Source: Paraconexibacter algicola (GTDB lineage: Bacteria; Actinomycetota; Thermoleophilia; Solirubrobacterales; Solirubrobacteraceae). From it: 64,000 nucleotides of DNA. The notes below the pieces were generated by a model. That model saw only the letters and a list, made by a program, of their open reading frames with translations. It had not been told where the DNA came from and did no database searches. This document shows, in pieces, positions 21,828-35,027 of the stretch (its first letter is position 1; each line of letters starts with the position of its first letter). The stretch lies in NCBI RefSeq assembly GCF_003044185.1, contig NZ_PYYB01000002.1, positions 62,001 through 126,000 on the forward strand, written 5' to 3'. The position numbers and the translations under genes are program-made.

Positions 21828-21943
21828 TCGTCGTTCCGGTCCCGGACCGGCCGCTGCCGGGGTCGTCGCGCGGCGACATGCGGCCGCCGCGCCAACCCCG
21901 CCGTTCCACGACTCCGGACGCAGCACTGCTCCGGGACCTGGAG

Positions 21944-21972
21944 TGACGCCGGGGGTGCCGTGGCACTACAGT
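21944..21972 (+). promoter_or_regulatory. Promoter of the PAS/SpoIIE phosphatase gene
   Basis: TGACGC (21944-21949) and TACAGT (21967-21972) are separated by 17 bases. The start GTG 21982 lies 9 bases after the -10, so the mRNA is leaderless or nearly so. This argues against the longer frame from 21943, which would be inside the promoter. Confidence 0.5.
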
Positions 21973-21981
21973 GCGTGCCAC

Positions 21982-23586
21982 GTGCAGGCCGACCCGCTCC
22001 TCGATCTCGCCGGCCCGCTGCGTCCCGCCTACGAGGCGGTCGACTGGGCCGCCACCCCGCTCGGGCCGATGGCGGACTGGCATCCCGCGCTGCGGCACGC
22101 CACCGCGATGGCGCTCGACTCCGAGTTCCCCATCACGCTGCTGTGGGGGCCCGAGCGCGTGATGGTCTACAACGCCGGCTACGTCGAGCAGATCATCGAC
22201 AAGCACCCCGCCGCGCTCGGCCGCCGGGTGCAGGACGTCTTCCCCGAGGCCTGGGACGCGATCGAGCCGCTCGTGCAGCAGGTCTTCGACGACGACCCGC
22301 CCGGGCTGCTGGAGGACCAGTTCTTCCCGCTGGACCGCAACGGCTTCCTCGAGGAGACGTACTTCACGTTCGCGTACTCGGCCCTGCGCGACGCCGACCA
22401 CACCGTCCTCGGGGTCATCGACATCAGCTCCGAGACCACGACCCAGGTGCTCGCGCGCCGCCGCCTCGAGCTGCTCGGCCTGCTCGGAGACCGGCTCGCC
22501 GGGGTCCGGGGCACGGCCGAGGTGCTCGGGGTCACCACCGAGGTGCTCGCCGAGGGCGTCGCCGACATGCCGGTCGCCGAGGTCTGGCTGCCCGGCCTCT
22601 CGCAGCGGACCTCCGGTGGCGTCCTGCCCGAGGCGCCCCTCGACGAGCTGCCCGCCGGGGAGCTGCTCCTCACCGAGACGCCGACGGGCCGCGTCGCCTG
22701 GGTGCCGCTCGGCCCCTACGACGAGGAGGCCGGGGCCCAGCCGCTGCTCGTCGTCCGCCTCAACGACATGCTCGCCCCGGACGACCCGTATCTGGGCTTC
22801 CTGCGGCTGCTCGGCTCGACGATCCGGCAGGCGCTCGAGCGCGCGCGGGTCAGCGACGCCGAGCGGCGGATCAGCGAGACGCTCCAGCGCAGCCTGCTGC
22901 CGCAGCCGCCCGAGGTCCCCGGCCTGGTGATCGCGGCCCGCTACCTCGCCGCCGCCGAGCAGGCCCAGATCGGGGGCGACTGGTACGACGCCTTCGTGCT
23001 CGCCGACGGCACCACGGTCGCGGTCATCGGCGACATCGCCGGGCACGACCAGGACGCCGCCGCCGAGATGGCCCAGGTCCGCTCGCTGCTGCGCGGGGTC
23101 GTGCTCACCGCCGGGTCCTCCCCCGCCTCCGCGCTGGAGCAGCTCGACACCGTCGTGCAGGGGCTCGACCTGGGGACGGTCGCGACGCTCGTCGTGACCA
23201 CGATCTCCGCGCCGGCCACCGACGGGCACCGGACCGTGCGCTGGTCCAACGCCGGCCACCCGCCCCCGGTCCTGATCGGCGCGGGCGGCGGCGCGCGCCT
23301 GCTCGAGGCCACCCCCGACGTGCTGCTCGGCCTGATCCGCGCGCCGCGCCACGAGCACGAGACCGACCTCGCCCCCGGCGAGACGCTGCTGCTCTACACC
23401 GACGGGCTCGTCGAGCGGCGCGGCATCTCCATCACCGACAGCCTCGGCTGGCTGCGCGACGTGCTCGACCGGTCGCCGGCCCGCGCCGCCGAGCCGCTGT
23501 GCGAGCACCTCGTCGCCGGGCTCTCGCCCGCCCTGGACGACGACATCGCCCTGCTGGCGATCACCGCCGGTGGCGTCGCGGCCTGA
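21982..23586 (+). CDS. PAS-linked PP2C-type phosphatase (SpoIIE/RsbU family)
   Basis: This 534-residue signalling protein has an N-terminal PAS-like sensor (about 30-150; FPITLLWGPERVMVYNAGY), a GAF-like middle, and a C-terminal SpoIIE phosphatase. The phosphatase motifs are LLPQPPEVPG, then GGDWYDAF and GDIAGHDQDAAAEM, with metal-binding Asp residues, SNAGHPPPVL, LLLYTDGLVERR and DDDIALLAI. Relatives dephosphorylate anti-anti-sigma (STAS) proteins and so start a general stress response. No anti-sigma kinase or sigma factor is adjacent. GTG 21982 was chosen from promoter spacing. Confidence 0.88.
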   Translation: MQADPLLDLAGPLRPAYEAVDWAATPLGPMADWHPALRHATAMALDSEFPITLLWGPERVMVYNAGYVEQIIDKHPAALGRRVQDVFPEAWDAIEPLVQQVFDDDPPGLLEDQFFPLDRNGFLEETYFTFAYSALRDADHTVLGVIDISSETTTQVLARRRLELLGLLGDRLAGVRGTAEVLGVTTEVLAEGVADMPVAEVWLPGLSQRTSGGVLPEAPLDELPAGELLLTETPTGRVAWVPLGPYDEEAGAQPLLVVRLNDMLAPDDPYLGFLRLLGSTIRQALERARVSDAERRISETLQRSLLPQPPEVPGLVIAARYLAAAEQAQIGGDWYDAFVLADGTTVAVIGDIAGHDQDAAAEMAQVRSLLRGVVLTAGSSPASALEQLDTVVQGLDLGTVATLVVTTISAPATDGHRTVRWSNAGHPPPVLIGAGGGARLLEATPDVLLGLIRAPRHEHETDLAPGETLLLYTDGLVERRGISITDSLGWLRDVLDRSPARAAEPLCEHLVAGLSPALDDDIALLAITAGGVAA

Positions 23587-24044: not shown

Positions 24045-25430
24045 TCAGTGGCGGACGACCTTCTCGCAGTCCCCGGTGGTGCGGTCGTGCTTGTCGAGCT
24101 CGACCACGTCGAAGCCCGGCCCGCAGGTGATCGTCGCGGGCCGGCTCGCGTACGCCTGGATCACGTCGTTGCCGGGCCCGGCGTCGATGACGTTGCGGCC
24201 CGCCCCGCGGACCCGGATGCGGTCGTCGCCGTCCCCGGCGCGGATCGTGTTGCTCCCCGAGCCCCCGTTGACCTCGTCGTCGCCGGGGCCGCCGTCGAGC
24301 TCGTTGCGCCCCGGGCTGCCGTAGATGACGTCGGCGCCGTTGCCGCCGAACACGCGGTCCAGGGCGGTCGAGCGGTCGCCGTGCAGCCGGTTGGCCCAGA
24401 GGATGTCGTCCCCGTCGTCCCCGTAGATGCGGTCGGCGCCGTGGGAGCCCAGGAGCGTGTCGTTGCGCGCCGTCCCGTGCTTGCTCGCCCCACCGTAGGG
24501 CGCGAGCCAGGTGATGCCCGCGCGCGGGTCGCGAGCCGGGGCGGCGACGAGCAGGATCCGCTCGCAGTTGCGCACCCGGCCGCCGCGGCGCAGCTGCCGG
24601 TCGGAGATCCCGCCCTGGTCGTCGACGCGGTCCATCTCGACCGTGTCGTTCCCCGGGCCGCAGTCGATCAGCTCGTCCTTGCCGCGGTCGTTGGCGTGGA
24701 TCAGGTCGTCGCCCGGGCCGCCCAGGAGCGTGTCGCGGCCGCTGTCGCCCCACAGCTCGTCGGCGCCCGTGCCGCCGAGGACGACGTCGTGCCCGGTGCC
24801 GCCGTGCAGCAGGTCGTCGCCGCTGCCGCCCACGACCCGGTCCTGGGCGGCACCGCCGTAGAGGAGGTCGGCGCCCGACCCGCCGTTGAGCGTGTCGTGG
24901 CCGAAGCCGGCGGTCAGCAGGTCGCGGCCGGTGCCGCCGAGCAGCACGTCATCACCCGCCGCCCCGTCCAGCCAGTCGGTGCCGGGACCGCCGAGCACGC
25001 GGTCCGGCCCGGTCTCCCCGTACAGGGTGTCGTCCCCGCCGCGGCCCGAGACGAGGTCGTGCCCGCCGCGGCCGTAGAGCGTCTCGTCGATCCCGCCGCC
25101 GCGCAGCCGGTCGGCCCCGGGGCCGCCCACGCGCACCCGCACACGGCCGGTCGTCGGGAGCGGGCTCTGCGGCGCGGTGGGGCTCGACAGGTCGTGGGCC
25201 GGGTCGACGTTCGCCGGCACGCGCGACGGCGCCGGGACCGGCGTGGGCGTCGGCTCGGGCGTCGGCGTCGGGGTCGGCTCGGGGGTGGGGGTCGGCTGCG
25301 GGGTGGGCTGCGGCTTGGGGCAGAGGATCGGGATCAGGCACGACTGCGCGGCGGCAGGCGAGGCGGGGAGCCCGACCGCCATCAGCGGGGTGGCGAGCGA
25401 CAGCGCGAGGAGGAGGCGGCGGGCCGACAT
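24045..25430 (-). CDS. Secreted RTX-type repeat protein with Pro-Thr linker
   Basis: A signal peptide (MSARRLLLALSLATPLMAVG, cut near AAAQS) precedes a PTPTPEPTPTP linker of about 30 residues. About fifteen calcium-binding nonapeptides follow, for example GGRGGDDTLYGE, GGSGADLLYGG, GGTGHDVVLGG and GGPGDDEVNGG. They are interrupted by a short Cys-containing insert near residue 270. The protein has 461 residues. The beta-roll repeats imply calcium-dependent folding outside the cell. No catalytic domain or sorting signal is seen. AGGA lies shortly before ATG 25430. Confidence 0.78.
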   Translation of the reverse strand: MSARRLLLALSLATPLMAVGLPASPAAAQSCLIPILCPKPQPTPQPTPTPEPTPTPTPEPTPTPVPAPSRVPANVDPAHDLSSPTAPQSPLPTTGRVRVRVGGPGADRLRGGGIDETLYGRGGHDLVSGRGGDDTLYGETGPDRVLGGPGTDWLDGAAGDDVLLGGTGRDLLTAGFGHDTLNGGSGADLLYGGAAQDRVVGGSGDDLLHGGTGHDVVLGGTGADELWGDSGRDTLLGGPGDDLIHANDRGKDELIDCGPGNDTVEMDRVDDQGGISDRQLRRGGRVRNCERILLVAAPARDPRAGITWLAPYGGASKHGTARNDTLLGSHGADRIYGDDGDDILWANRLHGDRSTALDRVFGGNGADVIYGSPGRNELDGGPGDDEVNGGSGSNTIRAGDGDDRIRVRGAGRNVIDAGPGNDVIQAYASRPATITCGPGFDVVELDKHDRTTGDCEKVVRH

Positions 25431-26802: not shown

Positions 26803-26987
26803 TGTCCGTGCTCGCGATCGTCCTCGTCGCCTGGCTCGTCCTGGCCGGCGTGGCGCTCGCGACCGGGTGGGCGCTGCTCCACGCCGCGCGGCGCACCGAC
26901 GAGGCCGCCGACCGCGACCTCGCCCGGGCGCTGCGCGATGCGCCCTCACCGGCGGCGGCCCCCCGGCGGGCCGCCGGGCTCTCCTGA
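26802..26987 (+). CDS. Small single-pass membrane protein
   Basis: This 61-residue protein starts MSVLAIVLVAWLVLAGVAL, one transmembrane helix followed by a charged tail (RRTDEAADRDLARALRDAP). Its ATG shares a base with the stop of the zinc-ribbon membrane protein (TGATG), so the two are very probably translated together and may form a complex. I recognise no family. Confidence 0.6.
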   Translation: MSVLAIVLVAWLVLAGVALATGWALLHAARRTDEAADRDLARALRDAPSPAAAPRRAAGLS

Positions 26988-27046
26988 GCCGCCGACTGGA
27001 CGGCTGTTCGATCCCGGGTGGCACCCGGCCTGCCGACCCTCAGGTC

Positions 27047-27268
27047 GTGCCCTCCCCCCTCCCCGCCGTGACCTGCCTCGACTGCGGCTTCGCCTGGAAC
27101 AGCGCGGCGATGGCCGACGGCCTGCGGCTGCTCGGCACCTGCGCGCGCTGCGGCACCGGCACGCTCGCCTTCCGCGACGCGCCGCCGTCGGCGCCCGCGC
27201 CGCAGGCGCGCGCGACCGCCGACCACGACGGCGCGCCGCACCTGGTGCTGGGCGTCCCACGACGCTGA
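27047..27268 (+). CDS. Small zinc-ribbon protein
   Basis: This 73-residue protein has two CxxC knuckles, CLDCGFAW and CARCGTGTL, spaced about 22 residues apart, followed by an Ala/Pro-rich tail. It resembles rubredoxin-like or zinc-ribbon small proteins of actinobacteria; the function is unknown. GTG 27047 has GACCCT 6 bases upstream. It lies between the membrane zinc-ribbon unit and the FtsH-like operon. Confidence 0.55.
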   Translation: MPSPLPAVTCLDCGFAWNSAAMADGLRLLGTCARCGTGTLAFRDAPPSAPAPQARATADHDGAPHLVLGVPRR

Positions 27269-27382: not shown

Positions 27383-29845
27383 ATGAGCGTCCCGTCCAGC
27401 AGCTCCGTCGGCCCGGCGAGCCGGTCCGACAGCGACGCCCTCGCCCTCGCCTGGCGGCGGCTGGGCCGCGCCGCCACCGCGGTCGCGCTGCTCACCTCGC
27501 CCGCGTTCTTCCTCACGCTCGTCGTCGTCAACGACTGGCCGATCTGGGTCGCGGTGCTCGTGACGCTGTTCGCGATCGCCGCGTTCCGCGGGCTCGTCGA
27601 CCTGATCTGCCACCGGCTGATCGAGCGCCCGTCGCTCTACAACGCCTCCGAGCGCACGAAGGCCGAGGACGTCGTCTTCCGGCGGCGGCGCTGGTACTGG
27701 CGCACGCGCTTCCGGCGGCTGGTGCTCTACGCGTTCATCGCGCTGGTCGCCCTGCTGCTGGCGCAGCTGTTCGTCCGGCTGCTGCTCGGCACCGGCGCCC
27801 CGTTCTTCACGCCGCTGTCGGCCTTCAACGAGGTCTTCCCCGAGGAGCAGCGCGTCCAGCTGGCGCTCCAGAACAGCCTCATCTTCTTCCAGCTGCCGCT
27901 GCTGTTCTTCGTCAACTTCATGATCTTCTTCGGCCCCCTGCTGATGTTCGGGGTCATGCAGATGAAGGCCTACGAGCCGGGCGAGTCCGACTGGGGCGTG
28001 CGGCTCGAGGACGTCCGCGGCCAGGCCGACTCCAAGCAGGAGGTCGAGCGGGTCATCACGCTGTGGGCCGCCGGCGAGGAGTTCAAGAAGGCCGGCGGCA
28101 AGCCGGAGCGCGGCCTGCTGCTGATCGGCGCGCCCGGCACCGGCAAGACGATGCTCTCCAAGGCGATCGCGACGAGCTTCAACTCGCCGATCATGACCAT
28201 GCCGGGCTCCGGCTTCGCGCAGACGTTCATCGGCCTGGACGTCGTCATGGTGATGATCCTCATCGCGCGCGCCCGCCGCCTCGCGCGCAAGTGGGGCGGC
28301 ACCTGCATGATCTTCATCGACGAGATCGACGCGGTCGGCATGCGGCGCAACGCGCTCGCCGGCGGCTACGGCGAGTCCTCCCCGGGGGTCCGCAGCACCG
28401 AGGACGTCCTCTTCTTCGGCGACTGGGGCGACATCACCCCGACCGGCGACCTGCGCCTCGAGACCGCCGCCTGGCGCGAGCGGATCTTCGCCCAGCGCGC
28501 CGAGGCCGAACGGGCCCTGCGCGACGAGCGTCAGCCGCGGATCATGCGGATGATGTTCCCGGGCATGGGCGGCGGCATGGCGCTCAACCAGCTGCTCGTG
28601 CAGATGGACGGCATGGACAACCCGCCCGTGCTGAAGAAGTTCTTCACGAAGAAGTGGAACACGTTCCTGGACGCGATGTACATCGTGCCCGGCTCGATCT
28701 TCGGCCGCTCGCTGCGCCGCAAGCCGCCCCGCCCCCGTGCCGAGCAGGTCTACTTCATCGGGGCCACCAACGTGCCGCTGAACGCCCTGGACCCGGCGCT
28801 CGTGCGCCCCGGCCGCATGGGCCGCCACATCTTCTTCCGCACCCCGACCAAGGACGACCGCCAGGACGTCTTCGACCTGTACCTCGGGAAGGTCGCGCAC
28901 GACCCGGACCTCGACCGGCCCGAGCGCCGGGACGAGATCGCCCGCATCACCGGCGGCTACTCCCCCGCCATGATCGAGCAGGTCTGCTCGATGGCGCTGA
29001 CCTACGCGCACTCCGACGGGCGCAACGCGTTCCGCTGGGACGACCTCATCGAGGCGATGACGACGATCGAGGCCGGCACCGCGTCGGGCTTCGAGTACAT
29101 CCCCGACGAGCTGCGCGCGGTCGCCATCCACGAGGCCGGGCATGCGGTCGCCTCCCACGTCTACATGGACGGCGTCCTCTCCACGCGGCTGTCGGTGAAG
29201 GCCCGCGGCGCGTCCGGCGGCCACCACCAGGCGATCGAGACCGAGGAGCGGCTCATCCGCTTCCGCCACGAGCAGGTCGCCCGCATCGTCTGGGCGCTCG
29301 GGGCGATGGCCGCGGAGCGCGTCTTCTACGGCGAGAACTCCCAGGGCGTCGGCGGCGACCTGCACGCCGCGACCACCGAGGCGGCGCTGATGGTCGGGCA
29401 GTGGGGCATGGGCGCCGAGCCCGTCGACCTGAACGGCCACGGCCCCGTCGACCCGAGCGAGCGGGCCGAGCTCGAGTGGCAGATCGGCCGCCGCTTCGAG
29501 CGCGTCGGGCGGGAGATCATGAACCGCTCCAGCGCCGAGGTCGGCGACACCCTCAGCACGCCCGCCAAGGTCCGGCAGGCCGCCCAGATCCTCGGACAGG
29601 CGTACATCACCGCGTACTGCCTCATCGCCCACAACCGCGAGGCGGTCGCCGAGGTCGCAGACGCGATGGTCTCCCGCATCGAGATCCACGGCGACGAGGT
29701 CGTGCGGCTGCTCGACTCCGTCGGCCTGGAGGCCCCCGAGATCGACCTGACCGACGACGCGATCTGGCCGAAGGCGGCGCTCGTGGAGGACGAGCCGCCG
29801 TCCGTGATCCGCGCGCGCCTGCAGCGCGGCAGCACCGAGGACTGA
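27383..29845 (+). CDS. Divergent FtsH-like membrane AAA+ zinc metalloprotease
   Basis: The 820-residue protein has about four hydrophobic segments in its first 195 residues, where FtsH has two. The AAA module has Walker A GAPGTGKT (249-256), Walker B MIFIDEID (309-316), a FIG pore loop and the second region of homology ALDPALVRPGRMGRHI. The peptidase site is HEAGH (583-587) with the third ligand Asp in GVGGDLHAAT (about 659). Two insertions set it apart: about 70 residues after Walker B, and about 40 between MDGMDN and YFIGATN. ATP-driven degradation of membrane proteins is inferred. It is unlikely to be the housekeeping FtsH. It starts an operon with the next two genes. Confidence 0.85.
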   Translation: MSVPSSSSVGPASRSDSDALALAWRRLGRAATAVALLTSPAFFLTLVVVNDWPIWVAVLVTLFAIAAFRGLVDLICHRLIERPSLYNASERTKAEDVVFRRRRWYWRTRFRRLVLYAFIALVALLLAQLFVRLLLGTGAPFFTPLSAFNEVFPEEQRVQLALQNSLIFFQLPLLFFVNFMIFFGPLLMFGVMQMKAYEPGESDWGVRLEDVRGQADSKQEVERVITLWAAGEEFKKAGGKPERGLLLIGAPGTGKTMLSKAIATSFNSPIMTMPGSGFAQTFIGLDVVMVMILIARARRLARKWGGTCMIFIDEIDAVGMRRNALAGGYGESSPGVRSTEDVLFFGDWGDITPTGDLRLETAAWRERIFAQRAEAERALRDERQPRIMRMMFPGMGGGMALNQLLVQMDGMDNPPVLKKFFTKKWNTFLDAMYIVPGSIFGRSLRRKPPRPRAEQVYFIGATNVPLNALDPALVRPGRMGRHIFFRTPTKDDRQDVFDLYLGKVAHDPDLDRPERRDEIARITGGYSPAMIEQVCSMALTYAHSDGRNAFRWDDLIEAMTTIEAGTASGFEYIPDELRAVAIHEAGHAVASHVYMDGVLSTRLSVKARGASGGHHQAIETEERLIRFRHEQVARIVWALGAMAAERVFYGENSQGVGGDLHAATTEAALMVGQWGMGAEPVDLNGHGPVDPSERAELEWQIGRRFERVGREIMNRSSAEVGDTLSTPAKVRQAAQILGQAYITAYCLIAHNREAVAEVADAMVSRIEIHGDEVVRLLDSVGLEAPEIDLTDDAIWPKAALVEDEPPSVIRARLQRGSTED

Positions 29846-29846
29846 C

Positions 29847-30890
29847 ATGAGCGAGTCGCCGAAGCACACCGATCCCCGCGAGCGCCCGTACGACCCGGCG
29901 GGCACGCGCCCCCGCCACGACCCGAAGGACATCGTCCCGCGGGCCCGCGACATCGACCCCGACGCCGAGGCCCGCGGCGAGTCGCTGTGGTCCACCCGGC
30001 CCGACGACACGCCGGCCCCCGACGCGACGCCCGCGCACGACCGCCCGGACGGCGCGGTCCTGACCGCGGCGACGTCCGCCGCCCCGCACCTCGACCGCCC
30101 GCCCCTCGACCCGCTCGCGATCCAGGACGCCGCGCCGCCCGCCGGCACCCCGCGAGCGGCCGGCGCCCGCATGCAGATCGTCCTCGGGGCGCTCGTCACG
30201 ATCGCGGTCGCCGCGCTCGCCGCCGCGGTCCTGATCACCGTCTCCGGCGGCGAGGACGCTCCGTCCGGGCCGCGCTGGTCGGCCTGGATGCCCGACGGGG
30301 ACGCCGGCGAGCGCATCCAGGAGATCGCCACGCGCGTCGGTCGCCAGTACCGCGGCAGCGACGGCAGCCAGCTCGTCGTCGTGACCGGCGGGCCGCTGGA
30401 GGTCGCCGGGCTGCCGCTCACCGTGGCGCTGCGCGAGCCCGTCGCCCAGGGCGGGGACGTCGAGATCGAGGAGGGCAAGGGCGTCCTCTACCGGCTCTGC
30501 GGACTCGGGGACCGCTGCGCGATCGCCGTCGGCAAGCCCTCCCGCGAGCGGCACCTGCTGCTGCGCCGTGAGGCGCTCGAGCTCGCGCTCTACTCCTTCC
30601 ACTACACCGACGTCGACCAGGTCGTCGTGTTCATGCCGCCCCCCAAGGGCAAGGACCCCGACGAGGCGCTGTTCTTCAAGCGCAGCGACCTCGAGCCGCA
30701 GATCAAGCGGCCGCTCGCCGAGTCGCTCACGCCCAGCACGCCGTCCGTCGCGTCCGTGACCCGGTCGACCGACGCCCCGTTCGTGCAGGACCTGACGCTC
30801 GAGACGCTGTTCAAGTTCAGCCTCACCCAGGGCAACTCCGACCAGCGGGCGTTCCTCGTGCTCGACCCGCTGCTCGCGAAGACCCCGTGA
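29847..30890 (+). CDS. Single-pass membrane protein, partner of FtsH-like protease
   Basis: The 347-residue protein has a charged, Pro/Asp-rich cytoplasmic N-terminus of about 105 residues. One transmembrane helix follows (about 110-132, IVLGALVTIAVAALAAAVLI), then an extracytoplasmic domain of about 200 residues. That domain includes GRQYRGSDGSQLVVVTGG and VVVFMPPPKGKDPDEALFF. I recognise no family. Its ATG follows the protease stop after one base (TGAcATG), so co-translation is likely. A substrate adaptor or regulatory partner role is inferred only from position. Confidence 0.65.
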   Translation: MSESPKHTDPRERPYDPAGTRPRHDPKDIVPRARDIDPDAEARGESLWSTRPDDTPAPDATPAHDRPDGAVLTAATSAAPHLDRPPLDPLAIQDAAPPAGTPRAAGARMQIVLGALVTIAVAALAAAVLITVSGGEDAPSGPRWSAWMPDGDAGERIQEIATRVGRQYRGSDGSQLVVVTGGPLEVAGLPLTVALREPVAQGGDVEIEEGKGVLYRLCGLGDRCAIAVGKPSRERHLLLRREALELALYSFHYTDVDQVVVFMPPPKGKDPDEALFFKRSDLEPQIKRPLAESLTPSTPSVASVTRSTDAPFVQDLTLETLFKFSLTQGNSDQRAFLVLDPLLAKTP

Positions 30891-31237
30891 GCGGGGAGCG
30901 GCGCGCCGCGATCGAGCGCGCCGCCGCCCGGCTGCGGACGCTCGACTGGTACCCGCGACCGGTGGACACGCGGCGCGTGCTGCTGCTCACCACCCCGTGG
31001 GTGTTCCGCCTCCCGGGCATGCGGCGCTTCCACGGCTACGCCGCCTGGAACCTGATCCTGCTGAAGCGGCCGCTGGCGCAGGTCTCCGACGACCTCGTCG
31101 TCCACGAGCTCTGCCACGTCTGGCAGATGCAGCACCACCCGGTCGCGATGCCGCTCTCCTACGTGCTGCGCGGCTACTCGCACAACCCCAACGAGCTCGA
31201 GGCCCGGCGGGCCGCCGCGATCACCGCTCGGGCGTGA
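30887..31237 (+). CDS. HExxH metallopeptidase-like small protein
   Basis: This 116-residue protein contains VVHELCHVWQMQHHP, a zinc-binding HExxH motif, with a downstream acidic candidate third ligand in NPNELEARRAA. It has no signal peptide. Similar short proteins resemble the DUF4157-type metallopeptidase core; the call is tentative. GTG 30887 overlaps the upstream stop as GTGA. Its 3' end overlaps the convergent Cys-rich gene by 17 bases. Confidence 0.65.
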   Translation: MSGERRAAIERAAARLRTLDWYPRPVDTRRVLLLTTPWVFRLPGMRRFHGYAAWNLILLKRPLAQVSDDLVVHELCHVWQMQHHPVAMPLSYVLRGYSHNPNELEARRAAAITARA

Positions 31238-31412
31238 CCTCCGCCGGCTCGTAGCCCGGACACTCCCAGACCGGCAGCCGCGGATACTTGGCGTACTCGG
31301 TCTCCCCCGTGAGCTTGGCGCGCTCGCACATGGAGAACACCGATCCGCGGGTGTTCCCGACGACGCGCTGGAACGCGCAGATGTTGCAGAGGCCAGCGGG
31401 CGGTCCGGGCAT
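31221..31412 (-). CDS. Small Cys-rich (putative metal-binding) protein
   Basis: This 63-residue protein has the pattern CNICAFQRVVGNTRGSVFSM, then CERAK, AKYPRLPVWECPGYEP. The four Cys (CxxC, C, C) and the RGS-F-C and KYP-LPV-CPGY landmarks recur in short uncharacterised bacterial proteins, which suggests a zinc or iron site. ATG 31412 is chosen; CAGGCT lies 8 bases upstream. It is divergent from the ABC exporter and convergent with the HExxH gene. Confidence 0.6.
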   Translation of the reverse strand: MPGPPAGLCNICAFQRVVGNTRGSVFSMCERAKLTGETEYAKYPRLPVWECPGYEPAEVTPER

Positions 31413-31446
31413 CACCCCGCAGCCTGACAGGATGGGAGGTCGGGTC

Positions 31447-33216
31447 ATGCACACGTTCCGTCGCCTCCTGCAGTTCCTCGCCCCCTACCGACGCGGTGTC
31501 GTCTGGTCCGGGGTGCTCGCGCTCGCCGCCATGGTGATGACGATCGCGATCCCCTACCTGACCGGTCGGGCGGTCGACGCGCTCCAGCGCGACGACCAGG
31601 ACGACCTCGTCCTGCTCGGCGTGCTCGTCGGCGTCGCGGGCCTCACCCGGTTCGTCCTGATGATCTTCCGGCGGCTCGTCGCCGGGCGCGTGTCGCTGGG
31701 CGTCGAGCTCGACCTGCGCGACCGGCTCTACACGCACCTGCTGTCGCTCGAGCTCGCGTTCTTCGACCGCCAGCAGACCGGGCAGCTGATGTCGCGCGCC
31801 ACCGTCGACCTGCAGGCCGTCCGCTTCTTCCTCGGCTACGGGCTCGTCTTCATCATCCAGTCCGGCCTGACGCTGCTGCTCGCCGCCGGGGCGATGGCGC
31901 TCATCGACCCGACGCTCGCCGCCGTCTCGCTCGCCCCCGTCCCGTTCGTCGTCTGGGCCGCCATCCGCTACGGGCTGCGCGCCCGGCCGGCGCTGCAGGA
32001 GGTCCAGCAGCGCATCGCCGAGCTCACCGCCGACGTGCAGGAGAACGTCGGCGGCGTCCGCGTCGTGAAGGCGTTCGCGCGCGAGGAGCGCCAGTACGAG
32101 CAGTTCGTGCGCAGCGTCGGGCGGGTGTTCGACCAGTCCATGGTCTCCACGCGCCTGCAGGCGTTCTACAACCCGCTGATCGGCTTCCTGCCGCAGCTCG
32201 GGCTCGCCGCGATCCTGCTCGTCGGCGGCCGGCGCGTGATCGACGGCGACCTCACGACCGGCGAGTTCACCGCCTTCTACACGTACCTGCTGATGCTGCT
32301 CGCGCCGATGCGGATGCTCGGCGTGCTGCTCGGGATGGCCCAGCGCGCGACCGCCGCCGGCGCCCGCCTGTTCCAGATCCTCGACACGCTCCCGGCGATC
32401 ACGCCGCCCGAGCACCCCGTGCCGCTCCCCGACGGCCCCGGGCACGTGCGCTTCGAGCGGGTCGGGCTGCGCTACACGGGCGCCACCGAGCCCGCCTTGG
32501 ACGACGTCACGCTCGACGTCGCGGGCGGCCGCACGATCGCCGTCGTCGGAGGGACCGGCTCGGGCAAGACGACGCTCGTGCAGCTGCTCTCCCGCCTCTA
32601 CGACCCCACCGAGGGACGCGTCCTCGTCGACGGCGCCGACGTGCGCACCGTCGACCCGTCGGCGCTGCGGCGCGCGATCGCGTTCGTCACCGACGACCCG
32701 TTCCTGTTCTCCACCAGCGTGCGCGAGAACATCGCCTATGGGCGCCCCGACGCGACCGACGCCGAGATCGAGCAGGCCGCCCGGCGCGCGCAGGCCCACG
32801 ACTTCATCAGCCGCCTCCCCGACGGGTACGACACGCGCGTCGGCGAGCGCGGCCTGTCGCTCAGCGGCGGGCAGCGCCAGCGGCTCGCGATCGCCCGCGC
32901 GTTCGTCGCCGATCCGCGCATCCTCGTCCTCGACGACGCCACCAGCGCCGTGGACGCCACCACCGAGCAGGCGATCAAGGACGCGCTGGGCGAGGTGATG
33001 GCAGGCCGCACGACGTTCGTCATCGCCCACCGGCTCTCCACGATCGCGCTCGCCGACGAGATCGTCGTGCTGCAGGAGGGCCGGGTCGTCGCGCAGGGCG
33101 ACCACGACCAGCTGCTCGACCGCAGCCCGCTCTACCGGGAGATCGTCGAGAAGGGCCTGCCCGACCAGGTGTTCCTCACCCGCAAGCCGCGCGAGCCGGA
33201 GACCGCCGGGCTGTGA
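31447..33216 (+). CDS. ABC exporter half-transporter with degenerate ATP site
   Basis: The 589-residue fusion has six N-terminal transmembrane helices and an ATPase domain. Walker A is GGTGSGKTT, the signature is LSGGQRQR, and the switch His is in IAHRLST. Walker B reads ILVLDDATSAVD: the usual catalytic Glu is Asp. This marks the inactive site of heterodimeric type IV exporters. GGGAGG stands 7 bases before ATG 31447. The next gene overlaps by GTGA and supplies the other half. Likely substrates are drugs, lipids or peptides; none can be named. Confidence 0.92.
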   Translation: MHTFRRLLQFLAPYRRGVVWSGVLALAAMVMTIAIPYLTGRAVDALQRDDQDDLVLLGVLVGVAGLTRFVLMIFRRLVAGRVSLGVELDLRDRLYTHLLSLELAFFDRQQTGQLMSRATVDLQAVRFFLGYGLVFIIQSGLTLLLAAGAMALIDPTLAAVSLAPVPFVVWAAIRYGLRARPALQEVQQRIAELTADVQENVGGVRVVKAFAREERQYEQFVRSVGRVFDQSMVSTRLQAFYNPLIGFLPQLGLAAILLVGGRRVIDGDLTTGEFTAFYTYLLMLLAPMRMLGVLLGMAQRATAAGARLFQILDTLPAITPPEHPVPLPDGPGHVRFERVGLRYTGATEPALDDVTLDVAGGRTIAVVGGTGSGKTTLVQLLSRLYDPTEGRVLVDGADVRTVDPSALRRAIAFVTDDPFLFSTSVRENIAYGRPDATDAEIEQAARRAQAHDFISRLPDGYDTRVGERGLSLSGGQRQRLAIARAFVADPRILVLDDATSAVDATTEQAIKDALGEVMAGRTTFVIAHRLSTIALADEIVVLQEGRVVAQGDHDQLLDRSPLYREIVEKGLPDQVFLTRKPREPETAGL

Positions 33217-35027
33217 GCACGCCGACGCCCACCCGCCGCGACGACGTGCGCCGCCGGCTCGCCCGCACCTCCGGGCGCGGCCGCAAGCTCCGCGGCCTGC
33301 TCGTGCTGCTGCGCCCCTACCGGCTGCGCCTCGCGGGCATGTTCGTCGCGCTGCTGCTCGGCACGGCGGCCGCGCTCGCGCCCGCACCGCTGGCCCAGAA
33401 GGCGATCGACGACGGGATCCTCGCCAAGGACACCGGCACGCTGACGCTCGTCGTGGTCGTCTTCGTCGCCAGCGCCCTCGTCGTCTGGGGCGCGACGTTC
33501 CTGCAGACGTACCTCACCGGCTGGGTCGGCCAGCGCGCCCTGCAGGACCTGCGCCTGTCGATGTTCCGCCACCTGCAGACCCAGCCCGTCGCGTTCTACG
33601 AGCGGCGGCCCGCCGGCACCGTCATCTCCCGGATGACCAACGACGTCGAGGCGCTCAACCAGCTCGTGACCGAGAGCGTCGTGACGCTCTTCAGCGCGTC
33701 CCTCACGCTCATCGGGTCGATCGTGATCCTGCTGACCTTCGACGTCGAGCTCGCCCTGCTGACGTTCCTCGTCTTCCCCGTCCTGGCGTTCGGGTCGTTC
33801 GCGTTCCGCATCGCCAGCGCCGACGCGTACGCGCGCACCCGCGAGACGATCGGGGCGATCACCGGCTCGCTGCAGGAGTCGCTCTCCGGCATCCGCGTGG
33901 TCCGCTCGTTCGCGCAGGAGGACCGGCAGCGCCGCGACTTCGCGGTCCTCAACACCGAGAACCGCGACGCGAACATGAAGACCGTCTACCTGAACGCCGC
34001 GTACTTCCCGGCGGTCGAGTTCGTCAGCGCCGTCGCGACCGTCGGCATCCTCCTCTACGGCGGCAACCAGGTCCTCGACGACGAGCTGACGATCGGCGTC
34101 CTCGTCGGCTTCATCGCCGCGATGAACGGGTTCTTCGACCCGATCGGCCAGCTCTCCCAGGTGTACACGACCTACCAGGCCGGCATGGCGGCGCTCGACA
34201 AGATCTTCGAGCTGCTCGACGTCGACCCGGAGATGACCGACAAGCCCGACGCCGTCGACCTGCCGCGACCGCTGCGCGGCGAGATCGCCTTCGAGGGGGT
34301 GTCGTTCGCGTACCGCTCCGCCGAGGACGGGGAGATCCGGTACGCGCTGCGCGATGTCGACCTGCGGATCCCGGCCGGGCAGACCGTCGCGCTGGTCGGG
34401 GCGACCGGGGCGGGCAAGTCGACGTTCGCGAAGCTCGTGTCGCGGTTCCACGACCCGACCACCGGGGCGGTCACGATCGACGGGCTCGACCTGCGCGACG
34501 TGCGGGCCCGTTCGCTGCGCTCGCAGATGGGCATCGTGCCGCAGGAGGGCTTCCTGTTCAGCGGCACCGTCGCCGACAACATCGCCTTCGGCCGCCCCGA
34601 CGCGACCCGCGAGGAGGTCGAGGCCGCCGCGCGCGCCGCCGGTGCCGCGGACGTCGTCGCCCGCCTGCCCGCCGGGCTCGACACCGAGGTCGGCGAGCGC
34701 GGCGTGCAGCTCAGCGCCGGGCAGCGCCAGCTCGTCGCGTTCGCGCGCGCGCTCGTCGCCGACCCGCGCATCCTCATCCTCGACGAGGCGACCGCGAACG
34801 TCGACCTCCACACCGAGACCCGGCTCGAGGAGGGCCTGCGCCGCCTGCTGCACGGGCGGACCGCGATCGTCATCGCCCACCGGCTCTCGACGATCCGCCA
34901 GGCCGACCGCATCGTCGTCCTCGACGGCGGCCGGATCGTCGAGCAGGGCACCCACGACGAGCTCGTCGCGGCGCAGGGCGCCTACGCGGACCTGTACCGG
35001 GACTGGGCCCGTCAGGCCGCCGCCTGA
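33213..35027 (+). CDS. ABC exporter half-transporter with canonical catalytic Glu
   Basis: The 604-residue partner has six transmembrane helices and an ATPase domain with Walker A GATGAGKST and Walker B ILILDEATANVD, which keeps the catalytic Glu. Its signature is LSAGQ instead of LSGGQ. In the heterodimer this signature faces the Walker site of the first subunit, so both deviations fall in the same composite site. GTG 33213 overlaps the upstream stop. Confidence 0.92.
   Translation: MSTPTPTRRDDVRRRLARTSGRGRKLRGLLVLLRPYRLRLAGMFVALLLGTAAALAPAPLAQKAIDDGILAKDTGTLTLVVVVFVASALVVWGATFLQTYLTGWVGQRALQDLRLSMFRHLQTQPVAFYERRPAGTVISRMTNDVEALNQLVTESVVTLFSASLTLIGSIVILLTFDVELALLTFLVFPVLAFGSFAFRIASADAYARTRETIGAITGSLQESLSGIRVVRSFAQEDRQRRDFAVLNTENRDANMKTVYLNAAYFPAVEFVSAVATVGILLYGGNQVLDDELTIGVLVGFIAAMNGFFDPIGQLSQVYTTYQAGMAALDKIFELLDVDPEMTDKPDAVDLPRPLRGEIAFEGVSFAYRSAEDGEIRYALRDVDLRIPAGQTVALVGATGAGKSTFAKLVSRFHDPTTGAVTIDGLDLRDVRARSLRSQMGIVPQEGFLFSGTVADNIAFGRPDATREEVEAAARAAGAADVVARLPAGLDTEVGERGVQLSAGQRQLVAFARALVADPRILILDEATANVDLHTETRLEEGLRRLLHGRTAIVIAHRLSTIRQADRIVVLDGGRIVEQGTHDELVAAQGAYADLYRDWARQAAA

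Follow-up and report, generated by a model that had tools for sequence, protein, structure and literature searches.

We propose that the FtsH-like protein encoded at positions 27383-29845 of the window (the whole stretch of 64,000 nucleotides of Paraconexibacter algicola DNA that was analysed) is a membrane AAA+ protease that belongs to an FtsH-like clade of its own and relies on the product of the neighbouring gene, acting in trans, for its extracytoplasmic module. We put the probability of this reading at about one half. Most bacteria have FtsH as their membrane-anchored, ATP-dependent protease, and both its choice of membrane substrates and its receipt of extracytoplasmic signals are still debated. 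No description of the clade was found in the open-access literature, in which work on Streptomyces covers FtsH and an FtsH3 (PMC5994538).

The protease retains a complete catalytic core

The open reading frame, domain searches and trees identify the 820-residue product as an FtsH-like AAA+/M41 membrane protease with four predicted transmembrane (TM) segments. It matches the Pfam AAA model (E=1.4e-21, 77.7 bits against a gathering cut-off of 21.2) and the Peptidase_M41 model (E=6.3e-21, 75.5 bits against 29.9), and has the features that mark the broad Peptidase M41/AAA superfamily, namely both domains, the zinc site, Walker A and B, the SRH arginines and an FxG pore. Features of the protease and of the two genes downstream all lie on the forward strand. 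By motif conservation, Walker A (GAPGTGKT, residues 249-256) is found at 28127-28150, the pore motif FIG (residues 282-284), the counterpart of FVG in FtsH, at 28226-28234, Walker B (MIFIDE, residues 309-314) at 28307-28324, the zinc motif HEAGH (residues 583-587) at 29129-29143 and the third zinc ligand, D659, at 29357-29359. The protein thus has the same AAA domain, FtsH-type pore motif, SRH arginines and HExxH...D zinc site as FtsH/HflB (M41, TIGR01241), and likewise joins a membrane anchor to a cytoplasmic catalytic part.

An earlier note on this DNA had stated that all catalytic motifs are kept, and this holds throughout the family. Walker A, the Walker B D/E, the pore F and G and the sensor N do not vary among the 37 family members, with a single T253V as the sole exception, and both SRH arginines, HEAGH and D659 are likewise invariant in all 37. 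The window protein is therefore expected, from its sequence, to be an active protease. The same invariance bears on the idea that degradation is not its main task and that it chiefly translocates or extracts proteins, as the chloroplast Ycf2-FtsHi motor does. That motor is also an FtsH-derived membrane AAA+ assembly with large additions, and the structural matches of the AlphaFold2 (AF2) model include FtsHi/Ycf2 motor chains; however, FtsHi motor subunits lack the zinc site, the proteolytic site lost there is kept here without any of the degeneration typical of FtsHi/Ycf2, and plain FtsH and YME1 top the list of structural matches. We consider a motor of this kind very improbable.

The window protein falls outside the classical FtsH clade

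Four other M41 genes are present in the same genome, scoring 153-248 bits against the M41 model as opposed to 77 for the window protein. In a bootstrapped tree of 46 sequences, a 100/99 branch separates the window family and its relatives from all four paralogues and the classical FtsHs of numerous phyla, and in a 117-row tree the window protein likewise lies outside the classical clade (support 99), although both trees contain long branches and some joins in the larger one were flagged. Insertion 2 in the AAA domain, which is common to the clade (see below), supports the grouping independently of the tree. The best NCBIfam match, the FtsH equivalog TIGR01241, scores 225.6 bits where the cut-off is 600, and this score and the tree placement together led us to reject a housekeeping FtsH identity. 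The earlier note's description of a divergent FtsH-like protease is thus supported by both trees, and neither of the two outcomes that it had named as fatal, placement inside the housekeeping clade or the lack of a second FtsH in the genome, was found. An origin in phages or mobile elements was also rejected, as viral contigs, phages and plasmids contain no member of the window family; the plasmid matches are distant clade relatives or classical FtsH. One of the four paralogues (L176, C1:2940220-2940783) is itself divergent: its zinc motif reads HESSH rather than HEAGH, and its branch is among the longest in the trees.

With this many M41 genes, redundancy is possible, and the window protein could be an ordinary divergent FtsH paralogue whose housekeeping duties overlap with those of the others, its neighbour a passive operon member and its insertions neutral growth in one lineage. 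The intact catalytic motifs would fit such a role. The separate, long-branched position of the clade (100/99) speaks against it, as do the conservation of the insertions and the behaviour of the neighbouring gene, taken up below, and overall we regard this explanation as unlikely.

A predicted four-helix membrane part and two enlarged AAA loops

Hydropathy analysis identifies four hydrophobic segments, all before the AAA domain, rather than the two of FtsH, as the earlier note had read from the sequence. They comprise TM1 (residues 31-49, 27473-27529), TM2 (residues 54-72, 27542-27598), TM3 (residues 113-131, 27719-27775), which follows a basic and presumably cytoplasmic loop at residues 73-112, and TM4 (residues 173-191, 27899-27955). 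An AF2 model of the monomer, of modest confidence (pLDDT 72, pTM 0.53), has long helices at residues 14-49, 54-79, 90-135 and 154-192. The predicted extracytoplasmic loops are about 4 and 40 residues long, compared with about 95 residues between the two TMs of one paralogue (own1). The predicted topology therefore differs from the classical FtsH arrangement of two TMs flanking an extracytoplasmic domain; this domain is predicted to be absent, and the modelled membrane part to form a compact four-helix domain.

The AAA domain also departs from FtsH in two places. Counting between fixed motifs, with 63 parsed classical FtsHs as the reference, the distance from Walker B to alpha3 is 82 residues in the window protease against a median of 18 (range 17-20), a gain of 64, and that from alpha3 to ATN is 60 residues against 21 (21-23), a gain of 39. 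These values agree well with the approximately 70 extra residues after Walker B and 40 between MDGMDN and FIGATN noticed earlier. Insertion 1 (approximately residues 324-399, 28352-28579) occupies the Walker B-alpha3 connection, has low pLDDT and carries a conserved gD..E..WR..F..R pattern. Insertion 2 (approximately residues 414-453, 28622-28741), placed by motif spacing, alignment and the model, enlarges the alpha3-beta4 loop and starts as a helix. Both are conserved in the 37 family members, which come from many genera, and this excludes chance; the retention of their motifs across genera also argues against the neutral growth expected of an ordinary paralogue. In FtsH, the beta3-alpha3 connection, where insertion 1 lies, carries the second pore loop (pore loop 2); insertion 1 could thus plausibly influence substrate handling, and may tune substrate engagement.

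The neighbouring gene encodes a co-inherited membrane protein

A single nucleotide separates the protease stop codon from the next gene downstream (29847-30890), which encodes a 347-residue protein with a single TM segment and a predicted N-in/C-out orientation. The TM segment (residues 111-129, 30177-30233) is supported by hydropathy and by the structure model, and is preceded by basic residues. On the positive-inside rule, the C-terminal domain of about 200 residues is predicted to be extracytoplasmic. This alpha/beta domain (residues 143-345, 30273-30881) is modelled with a mean pLDDT of about 95 and contains conserved CGLGxxC and RREALELALY motifs. The N-terminal tail, about 108 residues here, has low model confidence, is poorly conserved and varies widely in length among relatives.

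Searches with this protein returned no Pfam (E<=0.1), NCBIfam or PHROG family match, and its profile found nothing convincing outside the window's class. Compared with solved structures, the model gave no Foldseek match at E<=0.001 and no convincing PDB match, the best VIA Z score of 5.8 (Listeria lmo1757, 4hn3) lying within the uninformative range of the tool. Unlike HflK and HflC, the partners of FtsH, it is not recognised by sequence as an SPFH (HflK/HflC/prohibitin) protein (Pfam, E<=0.1).

The earlier note had singled out the two downstream genes, the first of which proved to be a near-constant companion of the protease and the second optional. Among the 60 genomes of the class that have the protease, 57 have a match to the partner, and in two of the remaining three the protease is a fragment cut off at a contig end; two class genomes without the protease gave weak partner matches only (E of 9.7e-7 and 2.6e-4). 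The partner lies immediately 3' of the protease in all 37 complete neighbourhoods, mostly with an overlap of 4-16 nt, which is consistent with translational coupling. Pairwise distances among the proteases and among the partners are correlated (r=0.69, against a permutation maximum of 0.17); this reflects co-inheritance, which by itself makes such distances correlate, and an operon without contact could give the same result. Such near-perfect pairing is hard to reconcile with the passive neighbour of an ordinary paralogue.

A constant adjoining gene would also be expected if the partner were a dedicated substrate, gripped by its cytoplasmic tail and pulled from the membrane, such that an extracytoplasmic signal, sensed by the domain of the partner, would lead to regulated proteolysis. 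FtsH requires a free cytoplasmic tail to begin on a membrane substrate, and the N-terminal tail of the partner, presumably disordered and variable in length, could offer one. On the other hand, the tail is poorly conserved and in some relatives short, no conserved downstream effector or transcription factor was found in the protease neighbourhoods, and the sister-family proteases described below pair with a lipoprotein that lacks a cytoplasmic tail. We therefore view a dedicated substrate as somewhat unlikely.

Other genes of the neighbourhood are less constant. The optional third gene (30887-31237), which occurs in 15 of 37 neighbourhoods, shares 4 nt with the end of the partner gene and encodes a putative small zincin of 116 residues with a HELCH motif (residues 73-77, 31103-31117) and a downstream Glu. 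Its pattern is HELCH ... NPxExEAR, with weak Pfam similarity to YgjP-like (E=0.0025) and, in a relative, also to eCIS_core (0.042). It is followed by two adjoining ABC transporter genes (31288-35027), of exporter type by sequence; 7 of 36 other neighbourhoods also have homologues of these downstream. No conserved upstream gene common to more than a few loci was found. A 133-residue ORF upstream of the protease (26867-27268) has a zinc-ribbon-like CxxC...CxxC pattern, and a similar ORF occurs upstream in only 3 other neighbourhoods. Further away, a minus-strand gene (24045-25430) encodes 461 residues with a signal-like N-terminus, a Pro/Thr-rich linker and ten stretches of RTX calcium-binding repeats (HemolysinCabind, E=2e-49), and 21943-23586 encodes 547 residues that include a SpoIIE-type phosphatase domain (E=2e-37) and show weak similarity to PAS.

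Relatives are found next to different extracytoplasmic proteins

The clade, whose members carry no annotation as such, spans Actinomycetota and Chloroflexota and includes one member each from Thermomicrobium and Sporolactobacillus; its members have insertion 2 in common and lack the usual FtsH extracytoplasmic domain. A scan of genome contigs with generic patterns, which returned mostly classical FtsH, provided the Sporolactobacillus member, one Chloroflexota member and sequences for the tree. A search for the Sporolactobacillus family at E<=1e-70 gave no matches, and the known member itself was also not recovered at this threshold.

Four groups can be distinguished. The first, the window family, has members in 60 of the 299 genomes that represent the window's class (E<=1e-50), and nothing in the phylum sample outside that class scored comparably. 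The second, nearest to it (100/100), consists of Chloroflexota relatives (L188 and L190-L193). They align with the window protease in the N-terminal membrane part and have an insertion 2 of similar size and the same GYSPAxIEQ lid motif, whereas their insertion 1 is a short Gly/Met-rich stretch. The L188 protein has a zinc-ribbon-like C-terminal tail. The third is an actinomycete sister family that includes a protein of Nonomuraea gerenzanensis (L177), to which genomes of the window's phylum encode proteins about 60% identical. Like the window protease, the Nonomuraea protein has several N-terminal hydrophobic segments, both insertions, a length of about 800 residues and an extracytoplasmic neighbour; it differs in having HEACH, as does its family, in place of HEAGH. 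The fourth comprises two-TM forms in Thermomicrobium, another Chloroflexota genome and Sporolactobacillus, which have insertion 2 only. Its Thermomicrobium roseum member, an 'AAA family ATPase' (TRD_RS13160, WP_012643090.1), has two TMs by eye rather than four and no large insertion 1. By parsimony, this distribution suggests that the clade had insertion 2, and lacked the extracytoplasmic domain, from an early stage, and that it was only later that the large insertion 1 and the additional pair of TMs arose.

The neighbours differ between these groups. In the sister family, the protease gene is preceded by one for a lipoprotein of about 220 residues with a lipobox cysteine; in the phylum sample this lipoprotein occurs in many of the same genomes as the sister protease and was not found in the window's class. 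Kinship between it and the window partner was rejected, as their profiles show no similarity (hhalign probability 0.3%). In the Chloroflexota relatives, no window-type partner was found, and in L190-L193 the protease is instead followed, at 24-33 nt where measured, by a gene for an SLT-domain (lytic transglycosylase) protein with a signal-like N-terminus, which may be an unrelated operon member; at least two Chloroflexota relatives follow a gene for a DUF5317-type membrane protein. In Thermomicrobium, a single record has a hypothetical single-TM protein, unrelated to the window partner, 12 nt upstream of the protease, and the Sporolactobacillus locus has no clear partner. The pairing of relatives with different extracytoplasmic proteins is a suggestive pattern from gene order, in which the Chloroflexota and Thermomicrobium cases are few, and its recurrence argues against the window protein being an ordinary paralogue. 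It might be that the whole clade lost its built-in extracytoplasmic domain and uses separate lineage-specific partners instead, whether a type-II membrane protein of unrecognised fold, a lipoprotein or an SLT-domain protein; we advance this broader proposal tentatively.

The relatives also bear on the earlier suggestion that the insertions, near the face of the hexameric ring, could hold a partner, which is unsupported and weakened in several ways. Insertion 2 is also found in the two-TM relatives, with another neighbour or none recognised, and in Chloroflexota relatives without a window-type partner; both insertions occur in actinomycete relatives whose neighbouring lipoprotein has no cytoplasmic part; and the folded domain of the window partner is predicted to lie across the membrane from the AAA ring. 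Contact between the insertions and the cytoplasmic tail of the partner is possible.

A proposed protease with an exchangeable outward-facing module

Under the reading that we favour, a separate-clade protease with its extracytoplasmic module in trans, the window protein would probably assemble as a hexamer on the cytoplasmic face of the membrane, and this hexamer would pull membrane or cytoplasmic proteins through its FIG pore and cut them at the HEAGH site. The co-inherited single-TM partner would provide the extracytoplasmic module, acting as a substrate receptor or gatekeeper, a role that HflK/C or prohibitins play on the outer side for FtsH and m-AAA. The hexamer, proteolysis, the physical interaction and the receptor role are what we infer from the sequences, models and gene order described above.

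Neither the two conserved AAA insertions nor the partner family, of no recognised fold, is specifically named in the family libraries used. If the proposal is true, these proteases would constitute a modular AAA+ system with an exchangeable sensor or receptor, of which the pair in the window is one version, and a sister clade of FtsH without the outward domain but with separate outward-facing partners would amount to a natural experiment on the role of that domain.
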